Source: Halobacteria archaeon AArc-dxtr1
Lineage (GTDB): Archaea; Halobacteriota; Halobacteria; Halobacteriales; Natrialbaceae
Length of the DNA: 64,000 bases
Direction: 5' to 3'
NCBI GenBank assembly: GCA_025517425.1
Contig: JAOPJY010000002.1
Span: 62,001 to 126,000 of the forward strand
Below the pieces are notes generated by a model. The model was not told the origin of the DNA. It did not search any database and worked only from the letters and a program-made list of their open reading frames with translations. Every line of letters begins with the position of its first letter. Position 1 is the stretch's first letter. Both the position numbers and the translations under genes were made by a program. Positions 26,344 through 45,208 of the stretch are shown piece by piece.

Positions 26344-26351
26344 TTATATAC
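26344..26351 (+). promoter_or_regulatory. TATA box of the first sugar-isomerase lipoprotein gene
   Basis: TTATATAC starts 30 bases before the ATG at 26374. An identical box lies 32 bases before the ATG at 27883, so both genes share the same type of leaderless promoter. Confidence 0.7.
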
Positions 26352-26373: not shown

Positions 26374-27570
26374 ATGTCTTCGGAACACACGGATGAGAAT
26401 CGCGTTCGTAACTATCGACGACGGTTCCTGCAAGGAATCGGCGCGGCCGGACTCACCGGACTTACTGCCGGTTGTCTCGGCGACGACAACGGTGACGACG
26501 ACGGCGATGATACCGGTGACGACAGTGAAAACGGAAACGGTGCCCCAGCCAACTTCGAGGTAGATTCCCTCGAACCGGGGGACGAGACGGTGACCATCGG
26601 CGAGTCCGTCGACGTGAGTGCGACGATCGAGAACACCGGTGACGAGGAAGACGTCCAGACCGTGTCCCTCCTGGTCGACGGTGACGAGGTCGACGACGAC
26701 GAGGTGGAACTCGGGGGCGGCGACGACGACGAGGTCGCGTTCACGGTCGGAACGATCGACTTCGACGAGGGCGAGTACGAGTACGAAATCACGACCGACG
26801 ACGACAGCCAGAGCGCGATGCTGACCGTCGAACAGACGGATATTTCGACGCAGTTCTTCTCGTACAACGGTGCCGGGTTAGACACCGTCGAACTGATCTA
26901 CGAATCGGGCGACCACGAGTACGACGCGATCGAACCCTTCGGCGGTCCAGGAAATCTCGGCGACGTCGACGACGTTCAGGAGGCACTCGACGAAACCGGA
27001 CTTCGACTCGGGAGTTCGCACATCAACATCGATGAGGTCGAAGACGATCCAGGCGGGATGGCAGATATTTACGGCGACTTCGGCGAAATCGCGCTCATCG
27101 AGCCCTACTATCAGGGCGTCTGGGATTCGCGAGACGACGTGATCGAGTTCGCCGAGCGAGTCAACGACGTTGCCGACGAGATGGAAGAGCGTGGCCTCCA
27201 GTTTGGGTATCACAACCACGACTTCGAGTTCGTTGAGCTCGACGACGGGGAGATCGCCTACGACGTTTTCGCCGAACACGTCAACGAGAACGTCCACCTG
27301 CAACTAGACGTGGGCTGGGTGGTCGTCGGCGGCGCCGATCCGGTTGCGGTAATCGAGCGCTACCCCGAGAAGATCAAGTCGATTCACATGAAAGACATGA
27401 CCGAGGACGGTGACTTCGTCGAGATCGGCGAGGGTGCCGTCGACATGCAGGGTGTCGCCGACGCTGCCAGAGAAGTTGCCGGCGTCGACTACCTCGTCTA
27501 CGAGTACGACAACGCTCCTGAACCTCTCGAGTCTCTCGAGTTCGGAGCCGAGTACCTCCAGAGTCTCTGA
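26374..27570 (+). CDS. Tat lipoprotein: CARDB domain plus sugar isomerase/epimerase barrel
   Basis: A 398-residue surface lipoprotein. YRRRFLQGIGAAG is the Tat signal and LTAGCLG the lipobox (Cys34). Residues about 52-153 are a CARDB-like beta sandwich (VDVSATIENTGDEEDVQTVS). Residues 155-398 are a xylose-isomerase-like TIM barrel with an intact site: SHIN, LIEPYYQGVW, FGYHNHDFEF, KSIHMKDM and VYEYDNA supply the usual His and acidic metal ligands. Such barrels act on sugars or inositols; outside the membrane it probably modifies free sugars or glycosides (inference). It shares its first 16 bases and domain order with the gene at 27883. Confidence 0.8.
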   Translation: MSSEHTDENRVRNYRRRFLQGIGAAGLTGLTAGCLGDDNGDDDGDDTGDDSENGNGAPANFEVDSLEPGDETVTIGESVDVSATIENTGDEEDVQTVSLLVDGDEVDDDEVELGGGDDDEVAFTVGTIDFDEGEYEYEITTDDDSQSAMLTVEQTDISTQFFSYNGAGLDTVELIYESGDHEYDAIEPFGGPGNLGDVDDVQEALDETGLRLGSSHINIDEVEDDPGGMADIYGDFGEIALIEPYYQGVWDSRDDVIEFAERVNDVADEMEERGLQFGYHNHDFEFVELDDGEIAYDVFAEHVNENVHLQLDVGWVVVGGADPVAVIERYPEKIKSIHMKDMTEDGDFVEIGEGAVDMQGVADAAREVAGVDYLVYEYDNAPEPLESLEFGAEYLQSL

Positions 27571-27882
27571 GCGCGCCCGACGGAATTGTCGACAGAACAC
27601 GCACTCTTCTCGAGGAATGCGATCGCTGGCTGGAAATCACACGGAGGAATCACAGCGTAACAGGCGATGGAAACAGTACGCGAGAGTCAGTGATGGGTGT
27701 GACTGGTAGAATACACATTATAAAGTATAATTCCCAGAAATAGTACTATCAAGAGAGACCCGCCGATAGTAAACATGTATTGACGCGGTCACTCCGGCCT
27801 GTAATGCCATCATACCGGGAATTATACACTGCAGTAAATGCCACCGTTAATTATATACGTGCTGTGTCGCTGATTCACACGT
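27571..27882. other. Gap with long inverted repeat upstream of the malectin gene
   Basis: No gene is visible in these 312 bases. GTATAATTCCC at 27725-27735 and GGGAATTATAC at 27817-27827 form an exact 11-base inverted repeat about 81 bases apart, and ATAGTACTAT at 27740-27749 is a ten-base palindrome. These lie in the region upstream of the TATA box at 27851, so a regulator could bridge them. Confidence 0.5.
27851..27858 (+). promoter_or_regulatory. TATA box of the malectin/LamG gene
   Basis: TTATATAC starts 32 bases before the ATG at 27883, a leaderless arrangement. Identical in sequence to the box at 26344. Confidence 0.7.
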
Positions 27883-30800
27883 ATGTCTTCGGAACACAAG
27901 GGCCGTGGTAAGATAAATGATACTTTAAACGAACATCGTCGGCGATTTCTTCAGGGCGTTGGGGCAACAGGAGTCGCTGGAATTACTGCCGGCTGTATCG
28001 GTGACGGGGACGACGATCCCAACGGCGAGGATGACGATACGGAACCAACACCGACCGAAGACGCCGAGTTTCAGATCAGCGATCTGGCTCCTGGTGAAAC
28101 GAGCGTCACCGTCGGCGAGACGGTCGAGGTAAGCGCCACGATAACGAACGCGGGCGAGGAAGAAGACACGCAGGCGATCGCGCTGACGGTCGACGGTGAC
28201 GAACACGATTCCGTCGAAGTAACGCTCGGCGAGGGCGAAGACGAGAGCGTCACCTTCGACGAGATCGAGACGGCCGATCTCTCTCCGGACGACTACGAGT
28301 ACGAGGTTAGCAGCGACGACGACAGCGCCTCCGCGACGCTGACCGTCGAGGGCGTCGATCTCGTCTCTCTGTTCTCGTTCGACGCGGACGAGATTACCGT
28401 TCTGCCAGGGGCGAACACAGTATCGGGAACGGTCGAAAACACGCTCGACGTCGGTGTCGAATCCGGAGAATTATCCGGGTCTCTTCCTGATGGGTGGGAA
28501 CTCGAATCTGAAAGCGGCACGAGCTTCGATCTCGCATCGGGCGACTCTCAGGAGGTCGAGTGGGAGATTTCGATTCCTGGCGACGCCGAGGGCGAATACG
28601 AACTCTCCGTCGAGGAATCGTATAGTGCGGCAGGCAGCGACGACAGCTTCACCACGAGTATCGACGTCGTCGTCGTCGAACCGCTCGGCGCACCGTGGGG
28701 ACTCAACAGCGGTAACGAAGACGGGGACTTCGATCCCGTCGAAGTCGACGACCTCGTCTTCGACGACGAGATTCCGGACTCGGTCACCGTTCTTGGAGGC
28801 CTGAACTCTGCCGCACGCGACCCGGCCGACGTCGAAAACACCGACCACGACGACATCTATCTGACCGAGCACTGGGGTGGAGACCTCGGCTACGATGTTC
28901 CGGTCGGCGAGGGCGTCTACGACGTCACGCTTCATTTCGCAGAAACCTGGTTCGGTGAGGACGGTGGAAGTGGAGAGGGCGGCGACGGCTCACGCGTCTT
29001 CGACGTCTCGATCAACGGGGAGGAGGTCCTCTCGGAGTTCGATCCCCACGCGGAAGCCGGCGGCGCGTATATCGCCGCGCCCCAGACGTTCACTGTCGCA
29101 GCGACAGACGGCTGGATCACCATCGAATCCGAAACCCACGAAGACAACACGCTGTTCAACGGAGTCGAGATTCGACCAGCTGAAGATCTCGCCGCGGCAC
29201 CGTTCGGCATCGACTCCGGTGGTGAAGACGTCGACGAGAGCGTCGAAATCGACGGGCTCGAGTTCACGAACGTCGAGGAGTCAGATGTCGTCACCGCCTA
29301 CGGCAACCCGGACGCAAGCGCGACCGGAACCGCCGTCGGCACGTTCACCTCGGACGAGCCGGTCGAGGGTACCGACCACGATCTTCTCTACCAGACCGAG
29401 CACCACGGCGGGGACCTGAGCTACGACGTCTTCATCGAGAACGGCGTCTACGAAGTGACGCTTCACTTCGCCGAGACGAACGACGCGCTCACTGGAGACG
29501 CCCGACTGTTCAACGTCTCCGTACAAGACGACGAGGTGCTCTCGGAGTACGCGATCGCCGCCGAGGTCGGCATCAACGTCGCGACGACCGAAGTCGCGGT
29601 GCCGGTCGAAGTGACCAATAACGTCCTCACGGTCGCCTCCGAGACCTTAGACGACAACTCGAAGTTCAGTGGCATCGAGATTCGAGAGTTCGACGGTGAG
29701 GTTCCGGACGACGCTGTCGGCCACTGGTCGTTCGACACTGATGGCGTTGACGACGACACCGTCATCGACCAGACCGGAAACGGCCACGACGGCACGATCC
29801 AGGGCGGCGTAAGCCCCGGCGTGACCTCCCCGACCGGCGCCGGCGCCACGTTCGACGGCGAGGAAGGGTCGACGGTCATGATCCCCGACGACGACGAGAT
29901 CGACCCGAGTGAGTTCACCGTCTCCGTGTGGGCTCGGACCGATGAGTCCGGCTTCTGGTCGGCGCTCGTCGGGAAGGACGGCTCGTACTGGTGTGGTACT
30001 CTGGACGACACGGCGATCCCACGCCTCGACGCCCACGACGATACAGGCGTAGACGGAGACATCACCGCCGAGACCGCCATCGACGATGGCGAGTGGCACC
30101 ACGTCGTCTACCGACACGGTCCGTCAGAAGACGAGTCGACGGTCCACGTCGACGGCGAACTCGAAGGCCGAATCGAGGATGTCACCGAATCCGAGCCGTC
30201 CGACATGGACCTCGCAATCGGGTCGAAGTCCGACGTCGCCGACTGGTTCGAAGGCGACCTCTCCGAGATTCGCCTCTACGACCGGCCACTCGGCGATGGC
30301 GAGATCGCCAGCCTCTACATGGAAGGCGAAGGGCCAGACGCGATCACCGCGCCGTACGGATTCAGCGCCGGCGGCTACCCCGACGATCACGACGTAGATG
30401 CAAACTCCGATGTGCCGGTCGTCATCGACGGCCTCGAGTTCCCCGGAGAAGCGGACGCGTCGGACATCGAGCACGTGCACGTAACCCACGACGAGGACCA
30501 CTGGTTCAACGACGAAGACTGGTTCAGTCCGCCCGCCGGCTCCGCCGGAACCGACGCGGAGATTGGCGAGACGGAGTACGACGCGCTCTACCAGACCGAG
30601 TTCTGGGGGCCCGACGTCAGCTTCGACTTCACCATCGAAGACGGCGTCTACGACGTGACGCTGCACTTCTCCGAGCAGACCCAGGACGCCGAAGGCGACC
30701 GCGTCTTCGACGTCGCCGTGCAGGGCGAGGAAGTCCTTTCGGAGTTCGACATCTACGCCGAAGCTGGTGGGATGAACACCGCCGTCACCCACACCGTCGA

Positions 30801-31746
30801 AGAGGTCGAAGTGACAGACGGCTCGCTACAGATCGACACGACGACTCACGAGGACGCGACGTCGATCTCGGGAATCGAGATTCGCGAGGCTGACGACGTC
30901 GATCCGGATCCATCGATCCACTTCCCGACCTACGACTTCCTCGACCTCGATGAGCTGTTCGAGGACGACGACGAGATCGACGATATCGAGGAACTGCTCG
31001 AACTCCTCGACCGACTCGACATCGATCTGGTGGAGCTGCTCGAGGAACTCGACGTCGAAGACGAGTTCATCGAGATGCTCCTCGACATGGACTTCGAGGA
31101 ACTGCTCAGCGACTTCGCCGACGGCGACGTCGACTCTGTCGAGCCGTACCTCGTCGCCATCGAGGAGCTGTTAGTCGAGTTCGACACCGAACTCGAGCCG
31201 GTGATCGCCGATCTCGCGGCGGCAATCGAGGAACTCGGTCTCGACATGCGCGCCGTCTACGTGAGCATGGATGCGCTCGACGCGGACCTCGACGCGATCG
31301 TCGAGTTGCTGGTCGAGTTCGGTCAGCCGATGATCGTCGAGGCCTTCGAGAGCCCCGAGGTCTGGTCCGACCCCGACTCGATCGCACAGTTCGCCGAGGA
31401 CTTATCCGAACTGGAAGCCGAGCTGGCGGAGCTCGGCCTCGAGTTCGGCTACTACCTCTCGGACGACTCGTTCGAAGAAATCGACGGTACGGCAGGCTAC
31501 GAACTGCTCGTCGACCACCTCGAGGGCGACGTCAAACTACAACTCGACGTCGCAGCAGCCCTCGAAGGGGATCTCGACGTGATCGCGCTCATAGAAGAGC
31601 TCGACGAACTGGGCGGTCAGCTCGACGCACTCGACATGTCCGGGCTCTCGGCCGACACCGACGACGCGGAGATCGTCGCGGCCGCCAAAGACGCAGGTGC
31701 CGAGCACATCGTCTACGGCTACGACGACGTCGAAAAGCTCGAGTAA
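27883..31746 (+). CDS. Giant Tat lipoprotein: CARDB, three malectin-like domains, LamG, degenerate isomerase barrel
   Basis: A 1287-residue surface lipoprotein. RRRFLQGVGATG is the Tat signal and ITAGCIG the lipobox (Cys38). Domains in order: CARDB-like (about 60-157); a NEW3/CARDB-type sandwich (158-266); malectin-like 1 (269-432); malectin-like 2 (438-602); LamG (608-816; HWSFDTDGVDDDTVIDQTG); malectin-like 3 (821-1003); then an acidic C-terminus (about 1015-1287) that aligns with the TIM barrel of the neighbour. Each malectin block repeats GVYDVTLHF and ends GVEIR or GIEIR. In the barrel GYHNHDFEF becomes GYYLSDDSFEE and IHMKDM becomes LDALDMSG, so catalysis is probably lost. Probably a carbohydrate-binding surface scaffold. 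Confidence 0.82.
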   Translation: MSSEHKGRGKINDTLNEHRRRFLQGVGATGVAGITAGCIGDGDDDPNGEDDDTEPTPTEDAEFQISDLAPGETSVTVGETVEVSATITNAGEEEDTQAIALTVDGDEHDSVEVTLGEGEDESVTFDEIETADLSPDDYEYEVSSDDDSASATLTVEGVDLVSLFSFDADEITVLPGANTVSGTVENTLDVGVESGELSGSLPDGWELESESGTSFDLASGDSQEVEWEISIPGDAEGEYELSVEESYSAAGSDDSFTTSIDVVVVEPLGAPWGLNSGNEDGDFDPVEVDDLVFDDEIPDSVTVLGGLNSAARDPADVENTDHDDIYLTEHWGGDLGYDVPVGEGVYDVTLHFAETWFGEDGGSGEGGDGSRVFDVSINGEEVLSEFDPHAEAGGAYIAAPQTFTVAATDGWITIESETHEDNTLFNGVEIRPAEDLAAAPFGIDSGGEDVDESVEIDGLEFTNVEESDVVTAYGNPDASATGTAVGTFTSDEPVEGTDHDLLYQTEHHGGDLSYDVFIENGVYEVTLHFAETNDALTGDARLFNVSVQDDEVLSEYAIAAEVGINVATTEVAVPVEVTNNVLTVASETLDDNSKFSGIEIREFDGEVPDDAVGHWSFDTDGVDDDTVIDQTGNGHDGTIQGGVSPGVTSPTGAGATFDGEEGSTVMIPDDDEIDPSEFTVSVWARTDESGFWSALVGKDGSYWCGTLDDTAIPRLDAHDDTGVDGDITAETAIDDGEWHHVVYRHGPSEDESTVHVDGELEGRIEDVTESEPSDMDLAIGSKSDVADWFEGDLSEIRLYDRPLGDGEIASLYMEGEGPDAITAPYGFSAGGYPDDHDVDANSDVPVVIDGLEFPGEADASDIEHVHVTHDEDHWFNDEDWFSPPAGSAGTDAEIGETEYDALYQTEFWGPDVSFDFTIEDGVYDVTLHFSEQTQDAEGDRVFDVAVQGEEVLSEFDIYAEAGGMNTAVTHTVEEVEVTDGSLQIDTTTHEDATSISGIEIREADDVDPDPSIHFPTYDFLDLDELFEDDDEIDDIEELLELLDRLDIDLVELLEELDVEDEFIEMLLDMDFEELLSDFADGDVDSVEPYLVAIEELLVEFDTELEPVIADLAAAIEELGLDMRAVYVSMDALDADLDAIVELLVEFGQPMIVEAFESPEVWSDPDSIAQFAEDLSELEAELAELGLEFGYYLSDDSFEEIDGTAGYELLVDHLEGDVKLQLDVAAALEGDLDVIALIEELDELGGQLDALDMSGLSADTDDAEIVAAAKDAGAEHIVYGYDDVEKLE

Positions 31747-35400: not shown

Positions 35401-36360
35401 ATGACCGACGAAAACCGATCAGCGACGACAGAGGTACAGACTCCGACTACCGGCCCGACCGCGAACCGACGGCGAGTGCTGCAGGGCGTCGCCGCGCTCG
35501 GGGTGAGCGGCGGACTGCTCGGCACTGGGGCTGCTCAGCGCGGCGGCGCTGACCAGTCACGGGGGCGAACAGAGACGCCAATCGCGATCCAGCTGTGGAC
35601 GATCCAGGCGCTCGGGCTGTCGACGGCCGAGGAGATCCGGGCGGTCGCCGGCGCGGGGTACGACGCCGTCGAACCCTACACCATCGACGACCCGGACGAA
35701 GTCGAGAAGGCGCTCGACGAAACCGGACTCGACGTCGCCGGCGCGCACGTCGGGCTGGGTGCGCTCGAAGACGACTTCGAGGCGACCGTCGACCGGCACA
35801 CCCAGGTCGGCGTCGAGACGTTTACCGTCCCTTCGGCGCCCGGCGAACTGTTCGACAGCGAGGAGGGCGTCCGCGAGCTCGCGAGCCGGTTCAACGAACT
35901 TGCCGACAAACTCGCAGAACGGGGCCTGGAGTTCGGCTTCCACAATCACCACACCGAGTTCGTCGACCTGGGCGATCGGACGGCGTTCGACCTCTTAGTC
36001 GAGGAGACCACCGACGACGTCCGCTTCCAGATCGAACCCCTCGCCGCAGTGGGCGGCGAGAACCCCGTATCGCTGATCTCGAAGATCGGCGAGCGGGTCG
36101 ACTCAATTCACATGCGGGACCTGCACAAGAACGTGCCCGCAGAGGAGGCGGCCTACGACGTCGACGGCACCACGTGGGACTTCGCCGAAATCGGCGACGG
36201 CGACATGCCGATGAACGGTATCGCCACCACGGCACAGGCCCGCGCCGACGTCGACTGGCTGATCTACGAGCACAACCCGGTCGATCCGGAGTCGTCGATC
36301 GAGGCCGGCGCCGAGGTGCTCTCGACGCTGAACAGCGTCGGCGGCGGCCCGAAGCGGTAA
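35401..36360 (+). CDS. Tat-exported sugar phosphate isomerase/epimerase-type barrel
   Basis: A 319-residue secreted TIM-barrel protein. NRRRVLQGVAALGVSG is the Tat signal and there is no lipobox, so the protein is released. The barrel starts IAIQLWTIQALG. The family's active-site pattern is present: AHVGLG, VPSAP in place of the EPYYQ element, FGFHNHHTEF and DSIHMRDLHK, then IYEHNPVD near the end. It resembles the intact barrel at 26374 but lacks the CARDB domain. Probably an extracellular sugar-modifying enzyme; substrate unknown. Confidence 0.8.
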   Translation: MTDENRSATTEVQTPTTGPTANRRRVLQGVAALGVSGGLLGTGAAQRGGADQSRGRTETPIAIQLWTIQALGLSTAEEIRAVAGAGYDAVEPYTIDDPDEVEKALDETGLDVAGAHVGLGALEDDFEATVDRHTQVGVETFTVPSAPGELFDSEEGVRELASRFNELADKLAERGLEFGFHNHHTEFVDLGDRTAFDLLVEETTDDVRFQIEPLAAVGGENPVSLISKIGERVDSIHMRDLHKNVPAEEAAYDVDGTTWDFAEIGDGDMPMNGIATTAQARADVDWLIYEHNPVDPESSIEAGAEVLSTLNSVGGGPKR

Positions 36361-36436: not shown

Positions 36437-37735
36437 ATGGAGCTCTCCAGACGAACGGCCATGGCGACGACGGGTGCAGCGCTTGCGGGCGGTGCCCTCT
36501 GGTACGCGATGAGCGGAGCGGAGGCGGAGCCCGCAGTAGAGCCGATCCCGGGGATTACGGCGGCGTCAGACGCCGCGGAGGCGGCAGTCGACGCTGTCGT
36601 CGAGGGGAACGTCGAGTTCGGCGTCGAACTGTTGAACCAACTCGTCGACGACGATCCGAACGAGAACCTCGTCGCCTCGCCGGCCAGCGTCGGTCTCGCA
36701 CTCGGGATGACCCACGCCGGTGCTCAGGGCGAAACCGAGGCGCAGATCGCCGACGCGATGCGATTTCCCGACGATCAGGACGACCTGCACCCGGCACACC
36801 AGCACCTCCAGTACGAGCTGAACCAGCGCGCCGAGACCGCAGCCGAGGAAGACGCCACGTTCGAGCTGGCGGTCGCGAACGCGGTCTGGGGGCTCGAAGA
36901 GTACCCCTACAGCGAGGCGTACCTCGACCTGCTCGAGGAGCGCTACGGTGCGGAACTCGACGAACTCGACTTCGCTGGCGATTCGGAGGGCGCACGCGAG
37001 GAGATCAACGACTGGGTTGCCGAGCGCACGAACGACCACATCGACGAGCTGTTTCCGGCGGGCGCGTTCGATCAGTACACGCGGCTCGTCCTGACGAACG
37101 CGGTCTACCTGCTCGCCGACTGGCACCATCAGTTCGACGAGGGAGACACGCGAGACGAGCCGTTCACGACGCTCGACGGGGAGGAACGAGACGTTCCACT
37201 GATGCGCCAGACGCAGACGTTCCCGTACGCCGAGGTCGACGGCCACCAGGCGATTGAGCTTCCCTACATCGGCGAGGAGGTGAGTATGCTCGTACTCTTG
37301 CCCGCGGAAGGCGAGTTCGAATCGTTCGAAGCGGATCTGGACGCCGACCAACTGGGGACGTTCACGGAGTCGCTTTCGGAGGGGGAAGGACAGATCGTCC
37401 TCCCGCGATTCGAGTTCGACGTCGCGTTCAGTCTGAACGGCGTGCTCGCGGATCTGGGAATGCCCGGTGCGTTCGAGCCAGACGAGGCGAACTTCGACGG
37501 GATGACCGACGGGGACAACAACCTGTTCGTCGGCGAAGTCGTCCACGAGGCGTACGTCGCCGTCGACGAGGAGGGGACGGAGGCCGCGGCCGCGACCGGC
37601 GTCGAGATGGTCGAGGACTCGGGGCCCGCACTGGCGTTCGACATGATCGTTGATCGGCCGTTTCTCTTCCTGATTCGTGACCGTGAGACCGGTGCGGTGT
37701 TGTTCTTAGGGCGTGTCGTCGACCCGAAGGAGTGA
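36437..37735 (+). CDS. Secreted serpin (serine/cysteine protease inhibitor)
   Basis: A 432-residue serpin with a Tat-type signal (LSRRTAMATTGAALAGG). Core motifs are clear: NLVASPASVGLALGMTHAGA near the N-terminus, LTNAVYLLADWHHQF, and the C-terminal RPFLFLIRDRETGAVLFLGR. The reactive loop at about residues 378-403 starts with the hinge EEGTEAAAAT, whose small residues are typical of inhibitory serpins. Counted from the hinge, P1-P1' may be Asp395-Ser396-like, but the loop is about three residues longer than in antitrypsin, so P1 is uncertain. It may protect the cell from extracellular proteases. Followed by a convergent small membrane protein. Confidence 0.9.
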   Translation: MELSRRTAMATTGAALAGGALWYAMSGAEAEPAVEPIPGITAASDAAEAAVDAVVEGNVEFGVELLNQLVDDDPNENLVASPASVGLALGMTHAGAQGETEAQIADAMRFPDDQDDLHPAHQHLQYELNQRAETAAEEDATFELAVANAVWGLEEYPYSEAYLDLLEERYGAELDELDFAGDSEGAREEINDWVAERTNDHIDELFPAGAFDQYTRLVLTNAVYLLADWHHQFDEGDTRDEPFTTLDGEERDVPLMRQTQTFPYAEVDGHQAIELPYIGEEVSMLVLLPAEGEFESFEADLDADQLGTFTESLSEGEGQIVLPRFEFDVAFSLNGVLADLGMPGAFEPDEANFDGMTDGDNNLFVGEVVHEAYVAVDEEGTEAAAATGVEMVEDSGPALAFDMIVDRPFLFLIRDRETGAVLFLGRVVDPKE

Positions 37736-41694: not shown

Positions 41695-43284
41695 TCAGGC
41701 CAGGAAGACGTGTCGCGGTCGGTCGGCCAAAACGTCCCGGCCCCACTCGACGGTGTCTGAGAAGGCGTCGCTGCGGAAGAACGCCATCGCGTCCTCGCGG
41801 GAGTCCCAGCGACTGGCGATGAACGTATCGTTCTCGTCCTCGCGGTTTTCGAGCAGGTCGGTCTGGCGGTGGCCGTCCATTCCCGAAAGCGCCTCGCCGA
41901 CCTCGGCGAACGTCTCGACGAAGTCCGCCCGGTAGTCGGGCTTGATCGTGTAGAACATCCCCATCGTGCCCCAGGAGTCGTCCTCGTCGTCACCTGCCTG
42001 GCGGACCACGTCGGGCAGATCCGCGAGGAATCCGGCGGCCGTATTGGCGGCTCGGTCGGTCTCCCAGAGGCTGACGACGGCGGTTTCGGCGTCGTCTCGG
42101 CTCACCTCGCTCGGTTCGTACACGGCGGTCTTGACGTGCGTGTCGTAGTGATCGAAGTTCGCGCGCAGGCCGTCGACCTCCTCGAAGAGTTCGTCGGGGT
42201 CGGCCGCCGAGTAGAGGACGACAGCGTGGACGTCCTCGCCGTGGGGCTGGCCCGCGTAGACGCCCAGTTCGTCGAGTTCACTGCGGACGCGCTCGTCGTC
42301 CGAGTCCGCGTGCGAACCCCCGGAGCCGTGGTGGCCGTCCGAGTCGCCGTGGCCGTGATCGTTTCCGTGGCCGTCGGCACCACCGTGGTGGTGGTCCGAG
42401 CCGTGTGGGTCTCCCCCAGTATCGTGCGGGTGCCCGCTGGCACTGTCTGAGTGTCCACCGGAACTGTGTGGATGGCCGGTATGCGGGTCGTCACCCTCCT
42501 GTGGAACCGGCTCGCCCGCGAGGAACGCCCCAAGATCAGACGGAGCGATTCGACGGGCCGAAAGGAAGCGGCCGAACTCGGCAAAGCGCGAGCTCGAGGG
42601 GTCGAAACGCATCTCGGTGAGCAGCTCCTTCACGTCGGTCGGATCGTCGGCAAAGAGGGTGACGCCCCACTCGAAGTCGTCGAGGCCGGTGCTGCCGGAG
42701 ATAATCTGCGTGACGCGACCGGCGTAGTTCCGGCCGATGTCGCCGTGTGAGGAGAGGTGCTCGGCGCGCTCGTCGAATGGGAGTTCGTACCAGTTGTGGT
42801 CGGGGCCGCGGCGTTTGTCCATCGGGTAGAAGCTGGCGAACTCGGCGTCGGGAATTTCGGGAGTGAGTCGGGACTCGATGTATCGCTTCGTCCCCGTATC
42901 TTCGATCTCGCCGTCTTCCTCGAAGTATTCCTGGGACATGTAGCCCGAGACTTCGGTGACGGAGAGATACGAGTCCGCACGCTCGGTGAACTCGGCGAGG
43001 GCAGTGCTCTCGAACCGGCGCTCCAAGGTGTCGAGGTCGGCGAGCGTCGGTCGCAGATGCAAGACGAGGAGATCCGCCTTGTGTCCGAGCACCGAAAAAA
43101 CCGCGGAGTCGCCCTCCTCGGCGTCGGTGACGGCAGCCACGTCCGCGAGGTAGTCACGGCCCTCGGCGACCGCCCGCGAGCGTCGGCGCTCGGGGGCGTC
43201 GCGCCAGGCGTCCCAGTCGATCGAGCGGAAATCGTGAAGGACGTACCAGCCCTCCTCAGTCTGTGGCGGTCGGCGTCGTTCCAT
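41695..43284 (-). CDS. pitA: PitA: chlorite dismutase-like domain fused to monooxygenase domain by His-rich linker
   Basis: A 529-residue haloarchaeal fusion. Residues about 1-260 are a chlorite-dismutase/HemQ-type heme domain: DHNWYELPFDERAEHLSSHG, GRNYAGRVTQIISGSTGLDD and EWGVTLFADD. His180 in SSHGDIGR is the likely proximal heme ligand. Residues 266-327 hold 16 histidines in an acidic, glycine-rich linker. Residues about 335-529 form an antibiotic-biosynthesis-monooxygenase (ABM)-type ferredoxin-like domain (GMFYTIKPDYRADFVETFAE, FIASRWDSREDAMAFF). Such fusions are known as PitA in Haloferax. Coproheme decarboxylation in heme synthesis is plausible for the first domain, the second being of uncertain role. 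Confidence 0.87.
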   Translation of the reverse strand: MERRRPPQTEEGWYVLHDFRSIDWDAWRDAPERRRSRAVAEGRDYLADVAAVTDAEEGDSAVFSVLGHKADLLVLHLRPTLADLDTLERRFESTALAEFTERADSYLSVTEVSGYMSQEYFEEDGEIEDTGTKRYIESRLTPEIPDAEFASFYPMDKRRGPDHNWYELPFDERAEHLSSHGDIGRNYAGRVTQIISGSTGLDDFEWGVTLFADDPTDVKELLTEMRFDPSSSRFAEFGRFLSARRIAPSDLGAFLAGEPVPQEGDDPHTGHPHSSGGHSDSASGHPHDTGGDPHGSDHHHGGADGHGNDHGHGDSDGHHGSGGSHADSDDERVRSELDELGVYAGQPHGEDVHAVVLYSAADPDELFEEVDGLRANFDHYDTHVKTAVYEPSEVSRDDAETAVVSLWETDRAANTAAGFLADLPDVVRQAGDDEDDSWGTMGMFYTIKPDYRADFVETFAEVGEALSGMDGHRQTDLLENREDENDTFIASRWDSREDAMAFFRSDAFSDTVEWGRDVLADRPRHVFLA

Positions 43285-43375: not shown

Positions 43376-45208
43376 TCAGGCGAGCAGTCCGGGACCGAAC
43401 AGCATCGCGAGGAAGCTCACGAGCATCGTGATTCCGACCGTCGTCGTGATCGTCCGCACCATCCCGCGGGTGGCCCCACCGGGGAGCCGGGAGAGCACCG
43501 CCTCGGTGCTGGTCCGGAGGATGTGCCCCCCATCCAGGGGGAACGCCGGGATGCAGTTGAAAAAGCCCAGTTGGACGTTGATCCAGCCGGTCCAGAACAG
43601 CAGGTTCGCGATGAGAAAGACCGGTCCATCGCCGAGTGCGGCGAGCGAGCCCTGCACCTCGTAGAAGTTCTCGACGCCACCGGTGAAGCCGGCGAAGTTG
43701 AACGGGAGGAGGCCGATGAAGCCGATAAGCGGCAAGAACAGTACGAGGACGATCTGCCCGAAGAACGAGTCAGTCATCCCGCCGAACCCACCGTCGTCAC
43801 CCCCGCCGAGGATGGCCAGATACTCCTCGGCCGGGTAGAGCTGGACGCCGAGATCAGAGAGCGCCAGCCCGGAGACCTCTTCGACAGTCTCGATGCCCAG
43901 GAAGCCGATGTCTTCGGAGGGGTGCTCGCCGAGGGTGACCTCGTACTCCTCGCGTTCGTCGTCGACGTACGCGGCGACCGTAACCGTCTGGCCGGGCTCG
44001 GTTCCGTCGAGCGCCTCAGAGAGGTCGGCACCCGACTGGATGCGCTGGTCGTCTATCGCAGTGATCACGACGACGTCACCGGCCGGCGCGCCGGCCGCCG
44101 CCAGCGGCTCGTCGGGGGCGACGCCGACGGAGGCGCCGATCGGAATCTCGCGAGTGATCTCTTCGCCGTCCTCGCGTTCGACAGTAAGGGTCGCCACCTC
44201 GTCGTCGCCGACGGCGTCGAAGAAGGCGGCCTCCGTCGAGACCGGCTCGTCGTCGACGGCGACGATCCTGTCACCGACGTGCAGATCCGTCGGTCCGTTC
44301 TCGATCGCGACGGTGACCAGCAGCGACCGCTCGACGGTGACGGTCCGGTCGCCGTCGAGTTCGACCTCGATCGTCTCGGCGTCGATTTCGGCGAGGCGCT
44401 CGTCTAACTCGTCGTTCGACTCGATCGCCTGCCCGTCGATCGCGGTGATCCGTTCGTTGGCGCCGATATCGGCGTCTTCGGCAGGCGAGCCGGGTGCAAC
44501 GCCGGCGACGCCTGCACCCGGGGCGACGGCGATCGCACCCGCAATCGGACCGAACAGCAGCGCGAAGGCGATGATCGTAATCGCGAAGTTGTTCATCACA
44601 CCGGCGGCGAACATCCGCGTCTGACCGCCGCGGCTCGCCTCTCGGCTGTCATCGGGGTCTGGCTGGACGAACGCGCCGATCGGAAGCACTGCGAGCATCG
44701 CGACGCCCATCGACTCGATATCGATGTCCTCAACTCGGCAGAGCAGGCCGTGACCGCCCTCGTGGACCACGAGTCCGACCAACAGTCCAAAGACGATTCC
44801 GGGCGCGGCCGACAGCGGGAGGAAGTCGTTGACGCCGGGGATGACCAGCACGTTCCGAGGCTGTTGGACCGGCGAGGTCGGCTGAGGCGAGGTGAGCGCC
44901 CCGATCGCCGCGAACAGCAGGAAAACGAACATGCTGATCATGACAACGATGGCGATTCCGACGCCGAGGTTGGCCCAGGCACGCCAGAAGCGCGTCGGGC
45001 CGGAGAGCCAATCTAAAAACGCTCGACCACGGGTCGTATGGATCGTCAGAATCGGGCCTTGCGTACCGACGTACGACGGGAGCAGACCGCGATTTCGAAG
45101 GACGATGATTCCGAGCCAGTAGACGGCGAGGCCAAAGAGAACCCAGCCGAGAACGCCGGACGTCAGCGTCTCGAGGAAGGCAGGTGCGACGAGGAAGCCG
45201 GAGTCCAT
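43376..45208 (-). CDS. Site-2 protease family metalloprotease with PDZ domains
   Basis: A 610-residue intramembrane zinc protease. HEGGH (His149, Glu150, His153 in VVHEGGHGLL) is the zinc-binding motif inside a membrane helix, and LDGG (Asp559 in AFPLDGGHILR) supplies the third ligand. Between these lie about three PDZ-like domains (VAGVAPGSPAEDADIGANER, TDLHVGDRIVAVDDEPV, DVVVITAIDDQRIQSGADL), and several membrane helices flank them. Such proteases cut membrane-bound regulators after a first cut elsewhere. It follows lysS on the same strand after 93 bases; the substrate is unknown. Confidence 0.9.
   Translation of the reverse strand: MDSGFLVAPAFLETLTSGVLGWVLFGLAVYWLGIIVLRNRGLLPSYVGTQGPILTIHTTRGRAFLDWLSGPTRFWRAWANLGVGIAIVVMISMFVFLLFAAIGALTSPQPTSPVQQPRNVLVIPGVNDFLPLSAAPGIVFGLLVGLVVHEGGHGLLCRVEDIDIESMGVAMLAVLPIGAFVQPDPDDSREASRGGQTRMFAAGVMNNFAITIIAFALLFGPIAGAIAVAPGAGVAGVAPGSPAEDADIGANERITAIDGQAIESNDELDERLAEIDAETIEVELDGDRTVTVERSLLVTVAIENGPTDLHVGDRIVAVDDEPVSTEAAFFDAVGDDEVATLTVEREDGEEITREIPIGASVGVAPDEPLAAAGAPAGDVVVITAIDDQRIQSGADLSEALDGTEPGQTVTVAAYVDDEREEYEVTLGEHPSEDIGFLGIETVEEVSGLALSDLGVQLYPAEEYLAILGGGDDGGFGGMTDSFFGQIVLVLFLPLIGFIGLLPFNFAGFTGGVENFYEVQGSLAALGDGPVFLIANLLFWTGWINVQLGFFNCIPAFPLDGGHILRTSTEAVLSRLPGGATRGMVRTITTTVGITMLVSFLAMLFGPGLLA

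Follow-up and report, generated by a model that had tools for sequence, protein, structure and literature searches.

Cleavage of glycans by oxidation and elimination has so far been described from bacteria. The structures of the 3-keto-β-glucopyranoside-1,2-lyases AL1 and BT1 (PDB 8TCD, 8TCR and 8TCT) are presumably connected with a 2024 study of an alternative glycan breakdown pathway. The O-glycoside β-eliminase of Agrobacterium tumefaciens (AtOGE, PDB 8BVK) is a TIM-barrel enzyme that uses Mn2+ and cleaves 3-keto-O-glucosides through β-elimination; its metal is held by His132, Asp163, His189 and Glu233, His134 acts as the base, and the H134A mutant is inactive and the H189A mutant has less than 0.1% activity (PMC10628242). 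The 3-keto-disaccharide hydrolase family (DUF1080, PF06439) is exemplified by the 3-ketotrehalose hydrolase BT2157 and the putative 3′-ketolactose hydrolase CCNA_01705 (PMC9007349).

In this work we have analyzed a window of 64,000 nucleotides from Halobacteria archaeon AArc-dxtr1 (contig JAOPJY010000002.1, positions 62,001 to 126,000), which encodes a lipoprotein of 1287 residues combining lectin-type modules with a degenerate TIM barrel. Acidic proteins and archaeal genes, such as eIF2-gamma and ribosomal S6e, mark the organism as haloarchaeal. On balance, this protein is probably a lipid-anchored, non-catalytic glycan-binding scaffold at the cell surface, a part of an exported system for C3 oxidation, β-elimination and hydration of glycosides. 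A limited literature search returned no reports on haloarchaeal malectin or 3-keto pathways, in agreement with the original prediction, which knew of no characterised archaeal system of such kind.

Results

Domain organization of the 1287-residue protein

The open reading frame 27883-31746 (+ strand) starts with ATG and encodes 1287 amino acids. Its features, with the element found upstream of it, are as follows.

27851-27858, + strand: TTATATAC box, 25-32 nt upstream of the ATG (sequence inspection)
27883-31746, + strand: Tat lipoprotein of 1287 residues, in the order CARDB, NEW3, two malectins, LamG, malectin, acidic linker, degenerate TIM barrel (open reading frame, Pfam and own HMM)
27883-27996, + strand: Tat signal RRRFLQ and lipobox TAGC with Cys38 (read from the sequence)
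28093-28323, + strand: CARDB, residues 71-147 (Pfam PF07705, E 2e-5)
28414-28614, + strand: NPCBM_assoc/NEW3, residues 178-244 (Pfam PF10633, E 5e-10)
28690-29178, + strand: malectin 1, residues 270-432 (PF11721; position by own HMM)
29194-29688, + strand: malectin 2, residues 438-602 (PF11721; position by own HMM)
29866-30309, + strand: Laminin_G_3 between malectins 2 and 3, residues 662-809 (PF13385, E 2.4e-20)
30346-30888, + strand: malectin 3, residues 822-1002 (PF11721; position by own HMM)
30898-31062, + strand: acidic linker, residues 1006-1060, 45% D+E (composition)
30997-31743, + strand: degenerate TIM barrel of 3-keto-glycoside lyase type, residues 1039-1287 (alignment, AlphaFold2, Foldseek)

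The Tat signal and the lipobox point to export and membrane anchoring of the protein, in line with the original prediction of a Tat lipoprotein. The expected three malectin domains and the LamG domain were recovered as well: PF11721 matched in three stretches (E 1.3e-63, 214 bits versus a cut-off of 23) and PF13385 scored 73.7 bits versus 27.6, so that these domains, like CARDB and NEW3, exceed the curated Pfam cut-offs. The "CARDB-type sandwiches" of the original prediction comprise one CARDB domain, the other sandwich being NEW3. The boundaries of the malectins were set by a small profile built from the protein's own three copies, which share 46-49% pairwise identity. In a sequence search of the PDB malectin 1 matched animal malectin (2jwp/2k46, E 1e-5) and the LamG domain had no match. 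Aromatic residues that align with animal malectin are conserved in part, malectin 1 retaining them best; where the animal protein has EVYF, malectins 2 and 3 have no aromatics, and glucan binding may therefore fail. The domain families suggest sugar binding by the malectin and LamG modules.

Fold, ancestry and active site of the C-terminal barrel

The C-terminal barrel has no Pfam match; the TIM-barrel-like end that had been proposed emerged from structure prediction. The AlphaFold2 model (pLDDT 82, or about 90-98 in the second half; pTM 0.78) has eight strands in alternation with helices, the last helix being absent. Foldseek against the PDB placed AtOGE 8BVK first (E 5e-12), followed by the lyases AL1 and BT1, and phmmer aligned residues 1108-1232 to the same AtOGE entry (E 5e-5). 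In a maximum-likelihood tree the fused barrel is nested within the exported clade (support 97/91) on a branch of 2.34 versus a median of 0.37, its exact position being unsure because long branches are hard to place. Judged by sequence and model, the fused barrel belongs to the 3-keto-glycoside β-eliminase (1,2-lyase) group and not to the isomerases.

For the analysis of conservation the barrel was aligned with 36 others, of which two distant cytoplasmic rows were set aside, leaving 34 homologues. At every one of the six columns that are invariant in these 34 barrels the fused barrel has another residue (Y1126 and Y1191 for H, S1196 for E, D1251 for H, A1257 for G and G1279 for E). The near-invariant histidine acting as the catalytic base (HNH motif) is Ser1193, and three of the four metal ligands are lost, the aspartate (D1222) alone being kept. 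The replaced ligands and base lie at these positions.

31453-31461, + strand: YLS, residues 1191-1193, in place of the HNH of the homologues (metal ligand and catalytic base; alignment)
31633-31635, + strand: Asp1251 in place of an invariant metal-ligand His (alignment)
31717-31719, + strand: Gly1279 in place of an invariant metal-ligand Glu (alignment)

In a wider set all Tat-exported barrels read HNHDHE, except for one HNHEHE (window 35401-36360) and one HNYDHE; at the same positions the fused barrel reads YLSDDG. Since the invariant active-site residues are gone, it cannot work like AtOGE or the 1,2-lyases, and it is most simply read as a pseudoenzyme that descends from an exported lyase. 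A frameshift as the source of the lost motifs was ruled out by the open frame and the intact codon composition.

The barrel could also be a decaying passenger, left by a recombination that fused a lectin-type lipoprotein to a part of an exported lyase gene, in which case the function would lie in the malectin and LamG modules alone. The very long branch, the missing last helix, the change of 14 out of 23 conserved columns and the occurrence in a single genome would fit such an origin, but we regard it as unlikely: the frame is open without a stop and has a GC content of 0.85 at codon position 3, for which reason the region reads as coding sequence, and the second half is modelled with the high confidence given above. 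Moreover, beyond the six invariant columns 9 of 17 highly conserved ones are kept, and the chance of all six falling among the 14 changed columns is low (P 0.03), which argues for a changed rather than an absent constraint.

Pathway families in the genome and its relatives

The genome (2.8 Mb) contains 15 malectin domain matches, 11 AP_endonuc_2 matches, 8 matches to the 3-keto-disaccharide hydrolase family in four reading frames and 15 GSDH matches, with a ThuA-GSDH fusion; at the level of family presence, candidate oxidases or dehydrogenases, lyase-type barrels and 3-keto hydrolases co-occur in it. One cluster (C4, 113-131 kb) groups GSDH lipoproteins, a malectin lipoprotein, Gfo/Idh/MocA, barrels and cupredoxins, and another (C1) GSDH, ThuA-GSDH and malectin proteins. 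Of the nine malectin proteins, four are encoded no more than 10 kb from pathway genes, versus a coverage of 9.5% (binomial P 0.007; P 0.03 without the window locus). The test is a rough one, as the positions were entered by hand and the distance was our own choice. The same genome encodes a protein of 1745 amino acids (L073:3069-8306) with CARDB, GSDH, two 3-keto-disaccharide hydrolase domains and, by our own profile, two malectin-like stretches.

In five related genomes (G065, G002, G297, G263 and G382) an exported barrel is fused to a 3-keto-disaccharide hydrolase, and in G002, of the same genus, this fusion adjoins a CARDB-GSDH-malectin-cupredoxin protein. A BMP-type ABC transporter (substrate protein, ATPase and permease by Pfam) adjoins the exported barrel of G297, and comparable reading frames were recognised by eye in G065, G244 and G398. 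Large fusions around the 3-keto-disaccharide hydrolase and GSDH were found at L149:8572-11982 and L143:6571-11319, the types being ThuA with 3-keto-disaccharide hydrolase and GSDH, and 3-keto-disaccharide hydrolase with GSDH, NEW3, LamG and copper-binding domains. The exported barrel at L009:13283-14548 retains the catalytic set in full and ends in a long C-terminal tail rich in glutamate.

LamG and malectin domains are found in adhesins and receptors, and the remaining five of the nine malectin proteins lie away from pathway genes; the 1287-residue protein might accordingly act as an adhesin or envelope lectin of a general kind, with no link to 3-keto-glycoside chemistry and only by chance encoded close to a lyase gene. 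The fusion to a lyase-type barrel next to an intact lyase-type lipoprotein speaks against such a role, as does the finding of malectin next to these enzymes again at C4 and in G002, and we consider it quite unlikely.

Neighbouring barrel proteins

Two further barrel genes are encoded in the window.

26374-27570, + strand: Tat lipoprotein of 398 residues, CARDB and an intact barrel with the H/N/H/D/H/E set; predicted 3-keto-glycoside lyase (Pfam, phmmer, alignment, model)
35401-36360, + strand: Tat-exported barrel of 319 residues without a lipobox, with the set HNH-E-H-E (one ligand changed from Asp to Glu; Pfam, alignment)

The product of 26374-27570 gave 8TCT, 8TCS and 8TCD as the top phmmer matches in the PDB (E 4e-18 to 7e-18). 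Its structure was modelled with a pLDDT of 93, and Foldseek ranked BT1 (E 4e-16), AL1 (E 3e-15) and AtOGE (E 8e-13) above the entries of IolE and xylose isomerase type; two Parabacteroides structures that are uncharacterised also rank among these matches. The NCBIfam equivalog IolE scored 54.9 bits versus a cut-off of 290 and the hydroxypyruvate isomerase model 12.5 bits versus 353; given these scores and the fold ranking, the assignment as a cytoplasmic isomerase was rejected. As the same superfamily holds other enzymes of 3-keto sugars, the epimerase YcjR and the probable hydratase AtHYD, lyase is the leading but not the sole assignment, and the intact lyase of the proposed system is most likely this protein.

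The original prediction had described this neighbour as an intact extracellular isomerase lipoprotein modifying the captured glycans. An adjacent, intact enzyme lipoprotein of exported type is indeed encoded there, but "isomerase" is probably wrong. The name comes close to the Pfam label of the barrel domain, "Xylose isomerase-like TIM barrel"; this label spans many activities, however, and the best matches by sequence and fold are to 3-keto-glycoside lyases, the full catalytic set is present, and exported barrels have 3-keto-disaccharide hydrolases as fusion partners, which makes glycan modification by an isomerase very unlikely. Least credible of all is some remaining catalysis by the fused barrel through a rearranged, metal-free site, for although Asp1222 and Glu1087 persist, the base and three metal ligands are lost, and in AtOGE a change of His134 or His189 alone fully or nearly abolishes activity.

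The product of 35401-36360 is a probable paralogous 3-keto-sugar enzyme. Between the genes 26374-27570 and 27883-31746 lie 312 bp, and a separate TTATATAC box precedes each of them, that of the former at 26344-26351, about 25-30 nt before the ATG; they were therefore not taken as co-transcribed. The box at 27851-27858 is a possible TATA element of a leaderless transcript. The scan of the window neighbours revealed no 3-keto hydrolase, GSDH or transporter; the three barrel genes were the only pathway-related ones, so that the gene of the 1287-residue protein is not in one cluster with the other pathway genes. Immediately 3′ of the 35401-36360 gene a Serpin family protein is encoded (36437-37735, + strand; PF00079, E 8e-109). 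On the opposite strand lie a fusion of a chlorite dismutase-family domain with an antibiotic biosynthesis monooxygenase domain (41698-43284) and an M50 peptidase with several PDZ domains (43379-45208).

Distribution of the architecture

Malectin was present in 11 of the 119 genomes searched, the own genome counted. No second reading frame combining malectin with a barrel was seen among the fetched loci, nor was such a protein found in 394 genomes, where few candidates per genome were scored, so that the uniqueness of the architecture is not proven. A contig search with the full protein returned only weak matches to the LamG region, nearly all of them bacterial. A separate full-length search of 119 relatives scored few candidates per genome, and it is chiefly from the searches with barrel and malectin that orthologues are taken to be absent.

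Discussion

The original prediction saw in this locus a surface machine that captures glycans and modifies them. The predicted anchoring and, at the level of domain families, the glycan-binding architecture agree with this picture; the modifying activity cannot be placed in the fused barrel, which has no active site. The 1287-residue protein carries a lyase-derived barrel stripped of its active-site residues, the neighbouring lipoprotein keeps all of them, and the other pathway families are present in the genome and, in relatives, are joined to exported barrels or encoded next to them.

In the scaffold that we propose, CARDB and NEW3 would act as spacers and the malectin and LamG modules would hold polymers or glycosides at the membrane. 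An exported oxidase, perhaps GSDH with cupredoxins as electron acceptors, would produce the 3-keto-glycoside; an intact lyase such as the product of 26374-27570, with which the scaffold may cooperate, would eliminate the aglycone, and the 3-keto hydrolase family would complete the release. Each of these chemical steps is deduced from family membership. The dead barrel may now serve binding, structure or docking. That it has been repurposed for docking or sugar binding in order to bring an active 3-keto-glycoside lyase to the glycan held by malectin and LamG, in an archaeal surface complex for non-hydrolytic cleavage, strikes us as improbable.

We infer that haloarchaea have an exported oxidation-elimination-hydration pathway for glycans. 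Through such a version, comprising lyase-hydrolase fusions, copper proteins and lectin scaffolds, the route would reach archaeal surfaces and concrete genes would be available for testing, and a lyase-derived pseudoenzyme on lectin modules would be an unusual build for a surface system of this type.

The locus resembles AtOGE (PMC10628242) in the TIM barrel, with fold matches of E 5e-12 for the fused barrel and E 8e-13 for the neighbour, which has all catalytic residues of AtOGE. AtOGE is bacterial and single-domain, whereas the barrel of the 1287-residue protein has lost metal ligands and the base and forms the end of a Tat lipoprotein that also carries lectin modules. AL1 and BT1 are the best matches of the neighbour by sequence and fold, but come from gut bacteria, and the matched entries have no malectin or LamG fusion. 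The 3-keto-disaccharide hydrolase family is absent from the 1287-residue protein itself, but occurs in the same genome and is fused to exported lyase-type barrels in relatives. Animal malectin (PDB 2JWP, 2K46) belongs to the same domain family as malectin 1; it is a single domain, in contrast to the three found here, in which the animal-aligned aromatics are partly kept.
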